In this document: positions 20,211 through 26,697 of the stretch, one piece after another | Layout: each line of letters starts with the position of its first letter | Numbering within the stretch: the first letter of the stretch is position 1 | Origin: Pholiota molesta | Lineage: Eukaryota; Basidiomycota; Agaricomycetes; Agaricales; Strophariaceae | Assembly: GCA_014925825.1 (NCBI GenBank) | Contig: JACGCK010000044.1 | Coordinates: forward strand, 186,001 to 250,000 | Direction: 5' to 3' | Length of the DNA: 64,000 bases | Program-made: the position numbers and the translations under genes | The notes under the pieces: model-generated | The model's database searches: none | What the model saw: the letters and a program-made list of their open reading frames with translations, nothing else | Told to the model about the DNA's origin: nothing

Positions 20211-20218
20211 CCCTGACC
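20211..20218. repeat. Target site duplication CCCTGACC (left)
   Basis: Identical to 26690-26697. The two copies flank the terminal inverted repeats of the 6.47 kb transposon directly. Confidence 0.85.
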
Positions 20219-20231
20219 CAAGGGGTACGCG
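20219..20231 (+). repeat. Left terminal inverted repeat of the transposon
   Basis: CAAGGGGTACGCG, perfect inverse of 26677-26689; similarity stops after 13 bases. Confidence 0.85.
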
Positions 20232-20265
20232 GAAAAAAAATTAAATATATGAGGTCGAAAAGTTT

Positions 20266-20305
20266 AGTTAAGGCAAATTCAATGGGCCCCCCCTCCCCAT
20301 TAGGC
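20266..20305 (+). repeat. Subterminal direct repeat, left copy
   Basis: AAGTTTAGTTAAGG and GGGCCCCCCCTCCCC recur in the same order and orientation at 26608-26655 (AAGTTTGGTTAAGG, GGCCCCCCCTCCC). It is a likely transposase-binding site pair. Direct rather than inverted orientation is unusual for a subterminal motif. Confidence 0.6.
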
Positions 20306-20410
20306 CAAAAAAGGAAATAAGTCACATGTTTTGATGGGAACAATGATTATTAATTGGCATCTGTACTAAAAATAACCACCCGTTTGGCGCTTACTCGCCT
20401 TCCCTCGCCG

Positions 20411-23400: not shown

Positions 23401-26106
23401 TAGTAGCCGGAGTGATTCACGCGTTGAGCGCGACAAGGGATCCGCAGTATCTGGGGCCGAAGATAATTGACTAATAGATGAAAGGAGTTTGATCATTAGA
23501 GTAACGTCTTGCTTGTCGTTTGGCGAAAGAAGCGACTCGATAGTTGTGTCTGATAACCCAAGCGATTTGAGATGTTCGCGAAGAATTGGCGTAGAGAAGG
23601 TGCGTCCGTTGAGTTTGAATCCTTTCTGGCGGATAGCTGTGTTCCTGAAGCGCTTGAATACATGCTTCCAGTCGAAGTCTGCAGTCAGACCATCGTCTCC
23701 ACACTTGAGATTGAATAGCGGAAGTTGTGATAGCGAGGCGTAGATGGGATCCTGGGGATCTAGGTCATCTATAACATATGTTAATGTGGAAGAAATGGCG
23801 AATAATATATAATACATACTTTTCAGGGTAATGTTAATGAGCGCTCGACGGCGGCGGCTGTCACCATCCGTGCAGAGGCAGTAAAGGACTGTATTCAGCT
23901 CGCTCTCTTGTTCCTTGACGGCCGCCACGGAGCCAGTGATTAATTTTTGTTGATCTTGGACGGTTTCTTGTTTGCAACTTCCTGACATCGCATATGGTTT
24001 CGTAACGTATTTTCGGGGTTCATCACAGAGAATACTTGAGCCGATAACAGTGACCTAGATAATTCAATATTCAATATATATAAAATGGAAAGAGATGTTG
24101 AACGGGTACCTCTGTTGCGAGATGTATCCGCTTCTGACGCAGGGCTTGAGCTATGGCGTCGGCCTGGTTGATTGAGCGGAACTCGAGAGCGTAACCCTTG
24201 CCATGCTCGCGACAGACTCCGAGGATGTTGTTGGTACGGGGGTCCCATCGTAAACGTTCTTGAACCTTTAATTCATCATATTGGATGCTCATTCCAAGCT
24301 TGGGTTGATCTGAACGGACGTTTTCAGGAGGGTAACATTGCCGGAGGTTCGATACGAGTTCCTGATGTGTAGGGAAGCCAGCCGATGGTTGGAGAGGTGC
24401 GGAGGCAATGCGACGCTTTGTTGCATCTATAGAGGGCACTCCGAGGGCGCGTTGAGCAATAGTGGCCGCAGAACGGCCCCCTAATTTATAAATCAGGAAA
24501 GCGCGCTCGAAGTCAGCTTGTTCGAAGCCCCTCGGGTGTACTGTCGCCGAGCAGCTAGGTCGACCTTCTCAAGAATCGAATAGACGCTGGCACCTGACCG
24601 CGCTTGAGTGGCCATAAGCGCACGAAGGCGAGGTATATCTGACCTCCCGATGGCCATGACTAGCCGTTTCCAAGTCTGGATCTGCCGATTTCGGATACCA
24701 ATTGATACAGCGTTGTTGAGCGCTCGAAGCCTAAGGTTGTTGATAATTGTCGTCTTCCGCTGAAGCGATGCGTACATTTCTGCAGGTGTGAGATATGCCC
24801 ACGGAGTGTTTTCATGGGTTCCGTCAAGGAGGCGATGTCGAATGCCCATAATCGTTTCGTTGTCGTGCAGGCGTGAACAATAGTGGCACGGCAACATATT
24901 TCTTTCCTTTCCTTTGGCTGAGATACGTCCGATCTTGGTACAGCGTGTCGAATATATGATTAGGTGCTCGGAATTGATCATAACGTTCCAGGGAAGAGAG
25001 CGTCGCGTGTGGAGAAGAAAAGGATAGGAAGAAAAAGGGGAGGCGTCTTCAGGAAGGTGAAGATGATAGCCTGGGCATTGATCTTGGTGAGACGAGGAAT
25101 GCGTCTGGGGTGACGGAGAAGGTGTTCGCGAGTCGATTACAATCGGTTCATTTCGAGCTCTTGGACGCAGCGTCGGTGGTTCAAGGGCTTCGAGCGCTTG
25201 CTGTGGTGCTCTTGAAAAGTAAAAAGTAAATATACGTCTATGTGGGTAAAAGACAAACTCACAGTTCACCCATCGCTTCAATCAAGCGCCTAATTTTTCC
25301 TTCGAAGAGCCCGGGATGAATATTGAGATCGCCGATGCACGCCTTGAGGTACCTGTAGACTCCATCCATACCATAGTCTCCACGGCGAACCAAGGCGCAG
25401 ATAGTTTCAGCATTCGCACCGAACCCTAGCACTCGATCGAGGGCGGGGTTGACTATATCCTCCCAAGCATCTTGTCCTTCCTCGAGAAATGCAGTTGGAG
25501 GATGCGCGAAAACAGCAAGAGGGTCGGTGGGAGCGCCGACTGGAATGGTCGTCGGTAGTGCTTGTATAGCGCGGTAGAGCTCATGAATGAGCGGATGGTC
25601 GCTGTCATCGATTGAAAATGGAACCTAGGCAATGTTAGACATGGTAAGGAAAGCATATGATATGGTGGTGAATGAACTGTACTTACCAGCAACGGATTAA
25701 TCTGTGGCTCAGCACCAGACTCGGCGACAGCAGGGGGAGGCTCGACAGGCGTGGGTGAGGTTGCAGACAATGGGAGAAGTGGTGCGGGAGAAAGAGTGAC
25801 AGCCTGAGAAGAACTCGCGGACGCCGCGGACGAGTTTGCCTTACCAAAGAATGAAAGAAGCGTCTTCTTTGGCTGGGCCGCCGCCTCGAGAACCGCCTTA
25901 TGATGCGCAGCGCTGGAAATGTGAGTTTCCCAATTCCTTTCGCCTCCAAGCCCAATGAGAACGTTGCGTTTGCAGGCATCGCAGTACTGGGTTGACTGGG
26001 TGGTAAAACCGGGTTGCTAAAATTAGACGCATGTCATTAATACATTGATAGATAGACGTCATGACATTGCTCAACGTACCTTCGCTTTCTTTGACTTCTT
26101 CGCCAT
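20411..26106 (-). CDS. P/THAP9-like transposase with C2H2-like and PHD-like zinc fingers
   Basis: One gene of about 1,700 codons, start 26106, stop 20411-20413, short introns. N-terminus: MAKKSKKAK, then a C2H2/BED-like finger (YCDACKRN...NWETHISSAAHH). Middle: CHYCSRLHDN, then a likely first catalytic aspartate in MSIQYDELKVQERLRW followed by NNILGVCREHGKG, like the D-E-(M/L)-K...G of P/THAP9 transposases. After a long RNase-H-like region comes TDGLEKVFGKVRTMVGNDTN, resembling the E-xx-F-x-x-(I/V)-R...G-N-N end of that fold. An acidic stretch follows, then C2H2-type fingers (CSLCPN...LLKHMGAH; CPLCPRGGK...LRSHILKQH). The last exons code a PHD-like finger (CQDDGC, YLSCKGPGCGG, YHLTCRGL, DWYCDEDC) and a basic end (RKRRRKKN). 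All junctions checked keep frame; no stop codon was found. Confidence 0.75.
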
Positions 26107-26676
26107 AATACACAGGCCGGACAGTAAACACGGTGTTGCAGAGGCAAGGAATGCTGGAGAATAAACGGGCAAAGTTGGGGCAAAGACGAATAAAAATTGT
26201 AAATCAAATCAGCCGGCGGATGTAATCTTATCAAGATCTATGCTAGATTGTATCCGCTCAGGTGGATCTCCCAAGGTAGAGCTCACTACAGTGCTCTTTT
26301 CAGTCATTCCTTCAATAAAGTAAGGCTCTGTGGTGGATGATAGGTCACTACAAGTCGATGTAAGGCGTCTAAGCGCTCATTTAGCGAACATCTAGCGCTG
26401 AGATAGCTTCAACCGACGCTATTTTTGGGCCGGCTAAGCGTGTGCCGCGTGATACCGGCCGTCCAATGGCCGTTCAAGCATTGGGTTGGGTCGTTTTCAG
26501 CGTCGCTTTCGGCTGCCGGAGGCCAGGAGGCTTAGAAAACATCACATTATGTCAATTAAACATGTATATAGGTGCTCAAATGACTTATAAATCAATATTT
26601 GGACTACTAAAAAAAAGTTTGGTTAAGGTGCCGTAGGCGGCCCCCCCTCCCTAGCCCATATGCCGGCAATTGCCGG
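26107..26676. promoter_or_regulatory. Leader and right subterminal region of the transposon
   Basis: Non-coding DNA between the transposase start and the right terminus. It contains the right subterminal repeat (26608-26655) and the palindrome CCGGCAATTGCCGG (26663-26676 area) beside the inverted repeat. It should hold the transposase promoter; no clear TATA box chosen. Confidence 0.45.
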
Positions 26677-26689
26677 CGCGTACCCCTTG
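26677..26689 (-). repeat. Right terminal inverted repeat of the transposon
   Basis: CGCGTACCCCTTG, exact complement of the left terminus at 20219-20231. Confidence 0.85.
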
Positions 26690-26697
26690 CCCTGACC
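26690..26697. repeat. Target site duplication CCCTGACC (right)
   Basis: Same 8 bases as 20211-20218. Reading on, the host sequence continues as an MCM3 gene fragment. Confidence 0.85.

Follow-up and report, generated by a model that had tools for sequence, protein, structure and literature searches.

The window analysed here, a 64,000-nucleotide stretch of one contig of the mushroom Pholiota molesta, contains a DNA transposon of 6471 bp at positions 20219-26689, the borders of which were checked against other copies in the genome (Table 1). Its ends are perfect inverted repeats, with all 13 of 13 positions complementary, and the identical 8-bp target site duplication CCCTGACC flanks it on both sides. 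The termini and the duplication are as claimed in a preliminary description, whose coordinates of 20211-26697 take in both target duplications. The insertion point coincides with a join in a mosaic of gene fragments, and the two flanks meet inside the 8-bp target: the segments 20024-20218 and 26693-26944 are diverged copies of two loci, on contig C13 (92%) and in an MCM-like gene on C223 (89%). A search of the genome with the joined flanks recovered no empty site; beyond the window the flanks match two different places.

Table 1. Features of the transposon and its target site, in window coordinates
Feature	Position	Strand	Basis or remark
Left target site duplication CCCTGACC	20211..20218	.	Identical to 26690-26697
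Left terminal inverted repeat CAAGGGGTACGCG	20219..20231	+	13/13 complementary to right end; conserved copy border
Left subterminal motif AGTTTAGTTAAGG, then C-run	20258..20299	+	Similar motif, direct orientation, near right end
Exon 10: PHD finger remainder, stop codon	20411..20530	-	Gene model and Pfam
Exon 9: PHD finger, first part	20592..20743	-	PF23011 E 6.2e-6, 26.7 bits vs cut-off 27
Exon 8: acidic linker	20802..21208	-	Gene model
Exon 7: cysteine/histidine-rich modules, presumed zinc-binding	21260..21857	-	Sequence
Exon 6: D..H motif (DFDWKHVFKRFRN), helical insertion domain, catalytic Glu (GTDGLEKVFG)	21930..23768	-	
Exon 5: RNase H part, second catalytic Asp (TDGD)	23820..24054	-	Profile alignment
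Exon 4: stretch aligned to P HTH region, first catalytic Asp (DELK); frame break ~24537	24110..25210	-	
Exon 3	25263..25624	-	Gene model
Exon 2: N-terminal C2H2-like zinc pattern	25687..26016	-	Sequence; no Pfam model at cut-off
Exon 1: putative start codon 26106	26080..26106	-	Gene model, GT-AG; resembles P0002 start
Right subterminal motif	26609..26652	+	Orientation same as left motif
Right terminal inverted repeat	26677..26689	-	Complementary to left end
Right target site duplication CCCTGACC	26690..26697	.	Sequence

Between these ends a spliced gene of ten predicted exons can be modelled on the minus strand, with its ATG at 26106, its stop codon at 20411 and nine introns, each GT-AG and 51-72 bases long. 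This model is largely colinear with a 1629-aa protein of Pholiota conissans (P0002). The spliced gene of the preliminary description thereby gains a predicted exon-intron structure, but its continuity and apparent intactness are not borne out: exon 4 is one base short near 24537 relative to the copies on C60 and C2, both aligned. Translation from the ATG therefore runs into a stop shortly beyond this point, the 478-aa upstream frame and the 1269-aa downstream one remain unjoined, and the assembled gene is not intact. In the C2 copy exon 4 is open in one frame, and the sole in-frame stop over the matched stretches is intronic. With the frame broken in the assembly, the window copy is probably no longer autonomous, unlike the complete autonomous element envisaged earlier. 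It is conceivable, though less likely than not, that the break arose in sequencing or assembly and that the window copy is really open and perhaps autonomous. In favor of this, the break is the sole disruption seen in the ten-exon model, all nine introns of which are GT-AG, and a metagenome protein (P0001) is 98% identical over 581 aa, though its match does not cover exon 4; however, both aligned copies carry the extra base, and C2 is open at that place.

Copies were sought in the host assembly of P. molesta (65.58 Mb, 625 contigs), and the counts are lower bounds. The left 500 bases match at least 31 places, window included, and the right 500 bases at least 29; combined, they identify at least 35 places, window included, and other copies share the same borders, as the preliminary description led one to expect. 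Both ends are seen in 29 of these, and with one flank common to three copies on C609 they represent 27 independent insertions; this two-ended set leaves out C198 as well as C235, C7, C599, C143 and C389, the last five seen with a single end. Exact 8-bp duplications flank 24 of the 27 insertions, whereas that of C137 is 7 bp and those of C556 and C391 are crossed. All copies seen with both ends were counted here, because listing just those end pairs with agreeing duplications would bias the count, and it was this recount that brought in the three exceptions. The shared borders and duplications across copies are far beyond chance. No strong sequence preference is apparent in the 21 duplications tabulated. 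The window copy and the other copies read have CAAGGGG at both ends, with one base missing from one end in two short copies (C555 and C467). P termini begin with CA, and the start in CA and 8-base duplication that had been put forward as P traits are thus both found in the family.

By size the 27 insertions divide into 21 short ones (432-834 bp) and six long ones, five of the latter being 5.9-6.5 kb and one, which contains nested DNA, 45.7 kb. Identity reaches 99.6% between two short copies whose duplications differ, and the long copies on C556 and C391 match perfectly along one stretch of 1985 bases and, apart from a single gap, along one of 1583. The family has therefore moved recently, unless such near-identical copies are assembly doubles. 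The long copy nearest to the window element in the genome is that on C60, with 80-82% protein identity. Two further observations concern the genomic context of copies. At C556:95291-101199 and C391:13232-19138 (L004, L005, L048, L049) the right-hand duplications, GTAGGTAC and GTCCCAAG, are swapped, either because the copies exchanged sequence reciprocally or because the assembly joined them crosswise. Left-end fragments on C7 (L023) and C599 (L030) have one common flank, pointing to a segmental duplication.

Inside the termini, 19 elements were compared for the motif AGTTTxGTTAAGG: nine have it ~43 bp in from the left terminus, and 14 have it, likewise oriented, 74-75 bp in from the right terminus, the search patterns for the two sides differing slightly. 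None of the 19 has it in inverted orientation. These subterminal motifs could be binding sites for the transposase.

The relationship of the encoded protein to P transposase emerges from profile comparison (hhalign E 1.2e-14). In the hhalign mapping the equivalents of the P catalytic residues D230, D303 and E531 are kept in 38/40, 50/50 and 60/61 sequences respectively, as are those of D339 (55/58), H342 (59/59) and K345 (58/58). W266 is not kept in the mushroom family; it is invariant in 40 P sequences, a sample obtained from a Drosophila query with arthropods as the named hosts, and this invariance applies to that range. A helical insertion domain is present inside the RNase H fold, its helices being visible in the model of a relative (P0063). 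The fold match to P spans P residues 153-569, insertion domain included, and the structural comparison suggested earlier came out, for a relative, in favor of a P-like fold. Direct sequence searches recovered little: the 937-aa ORF gave three weak, unrelated matches and no transposase in the PDB, and the family alignment (A2) gave no PDB match. For PF21787, one of the curated Pfam models for P, the best score among A2 members is 21.8 bits against a cut-off of 24.6, its five matches in the host genome all fall below the cut-off, and none of the 39 of 41 A2 members whose bit scores were inspected exceeds any Pfam cut-off. PF21788, likewise a P model, matched neither here nor in its own controls and is uninformative.

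A relationship to RAG1/Transib rather than to P seems very unlikely. The P fold match is twice as high in Z, and the profile homology (E 1.2e-14) comes from a comparison that covered P. Moreover, Transib duplications are 5 bp, against 8 bp here. Still less credible is a KDZ (Kyakuja-Dileera-Zisupton) element. The 8-bp duplication is also a trait of Zisupton according to excerpts of PMC12730594, and KDZ elements share the genome with our family, the KDZ domain (PF18758) having 128 matches in P. molesta. However, Pfam tests show no relation: PF18758 has no match at E <= 1 in seven window ORFs and none of its listed matches lies on contig C378, on which ground this identity was rejected, and of the 26 families in the scan of family members the 25 displayed do not include KDZ.

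Several of the 128 KDZ-domain matches have identical scores. Separately, a sister transposase gene on C333 is interrupted by a 34292-bp insertion (C333:1005249-1039540; L066, L067), which has perfect inverted repeats of 18 bp (CACCTTTGGCAGCAGTTG) at its ends, is flanked by the 8-bp duplication CCTTCGTG and contains KDZ transposase matches. It is apparently a giant KDZ element, the end regions of which have no match elsewhere in the P. molesta genome.

A second fungal lineage is represented by a 939-aa ORF on C152 (L064), 30% identical over the best stretch, and by another locus on C586 (L065). Searches with the window family and the second lineage gave 166 and 91 matches respectively; among the matches listed (120 of the 166, and the 91-match search) none carries a precomputed Pfam domain, those with named hosts are from Agaricomycetes, and none is called a transposase. 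The second-lineage profile matches that of the window family with an E of 6e-158 and P with an E of 1.5e-10 (3.1e-9 in another run, in which ten permuted controls gave 0.14-0.79). Each of the five core residues is kept in 35/35 of its sequences. In 31 of 35 aligned members the acidic residue that follows the first catalytic Asp is replaced by Gly.

Members of the P superfamily use GTP and make a cleavage with a 17-nt stagger. According to excerpts of PMC7776569, P transposase is unique among transposases and integrases in having GTP as a cofactor, which it contacts through K385, K400, V401, S409, F443, D444, N447 and D528. Just two of these eight are clearly kept in the mushroom family, namely D528 (61/61) and V401 (60/61). 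K400 is replaced by D in 59/61 sequences, S409 and D444 are not kept, and the F443 position is Tyr in 40/61 and Phe in 14/61; K385 and N447 are unaligned, the helical part being the weakest stretch of the alignment. The second lineage again keeps just D528 and V401 of this set. This pattern of residues suggests that GTP binding of the P type is probably lacking in the insertion domain, and we regard the family as a previously undescribed, possibly GTP-independent variant of the P kind. We regard as distinctly less probable that these are ordinary P/THAP9 superfamily elements that use GTP like Drosophila P, and that the mismatches in the pocket stem from misalignment of a fast-evolving helical domain. 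Such a view could draw on the fold match, which covers the insertion domain, on the retention of D528 and V401, on the shared 8-bp duplications, and on the 13-bp ends likewise described for the zebrafish P-like element in excerpts of PMC7776569. It is countered by the replacement of K400, the loss of S409 and D444 and the unaligned K385 and N447, with which the second lineage agrees, as well as by the failure to find a THAP domain. No THAP model appears among the 25 families shown of 26 in a Pfam scan of 41 members at E <= 10, several of them N-terminally partial, nor in the N-terminus encoded in the window in a scan to E 1. The earlier placement nearest to P/THAP9 accordingly stands for the P core, but not for a THAP domain or the GTP contacts. 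At the N-terminus there is instead a C2H2-like pattern, which lacks Pfam support. A PHD finger, matched by PF23011 (E 6.2e-6, 0.3 bits below the cut-off) and PF00628 (E 4.9e-4), closes the protein and spans exons 9 and 10.

Taken together, the window contains, with high probability, a full-length cut-and-paste transposon of a mushroom family, with a transposase distantly related to P and the following mechanism. We infer that a multimer of the transposase would bind the subterminal and terminal DNA via its HTH-like region and N-terminal zinc module. Excision would be carried out by a P-type RNase H active site of Asp, Asp and Glu, interrupted by the long helical insertion domain, and the element would then be inserted at a target whose strands are cut with an 8-bp offset, generating the 8-bp duplication. 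The 432-834 bp copies with common ends would be mobilised by the same transposase, and the PHD finger at the C-terminus may link the enzyme to chromatin, by reading histones or in some other way.

Rust fungi are known to carry P-superfamily elements in Basidiomycota, namely P-1_MLP, P-2_MLP and P-1_PSt, and those of Melampsora have 8-bp duplications and non-autonomous relatives (PMC3164196, in part). We found no other paper in the literature that reports P elements from Dikarya. We found no published description of the mushroom family, for which an unpublished or database-only (Repbase) entry is possible, and the parts seen of PMC12730594, PMC7776569, PMC3411680, PMC8290104, PMC9674265 and PMC13066641 contain nothing on it. 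As rust P elements are known and no mushroom family was found in the literature, we file the family as a previously undescribed form of the P kind. A broader proposal, which we offer tentatively and hold to be somewhat more doubtful than not, is that the mushroom elements constitute a large group that is sister to the known P superfamily, cuts and pastes with a P-type core, has lost or never possessed the GTP pocket, and employs zinc modules and a PHD finger that reads histones where P has THAP. If true, this would furnish a natural test of the need of P for GTP; a fungal lineage with a P core and a different pocket opens the origin and necessity of the cofactor to comparison. Large mushroom proteins now listed without function also gain a classification. 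Given the recent short copies, two of which are 99.6% alike, the family may further serve as a mobile-DNA system in mushrooms.

Compared with Drosophila P transposase (PDB 6P5A/6PE2), the mushroom enzyme has the same split RNase H core, the equivalents of D230, D303, E531, D339, H342 and D528, the same order of HTH, RNase H and insertion domains, and the 8-bp duplication. Unlike Drosophila P, with its 751 aa and 31-bp ends, the mushroom element has a gene of ~1,700 codons and 13-bp ends; its transposase bears a PHD finger and further zinc modules with no THAP found, does not keep W266 and clearly keeps two of eight GTP-contact residues. To the rust P elements the family is likened by description, not by sequence (PMC3164196, in part). 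The zebrafish P-like transposon related to THAP9, likewise compared by description alone (PMC7776569, in part), differs in its THAP-based DNA binding, THAP not having been found in the mushroom family, but resembles it in its 13-bp terminal repeats, 8-bp duplications and several short related copies.
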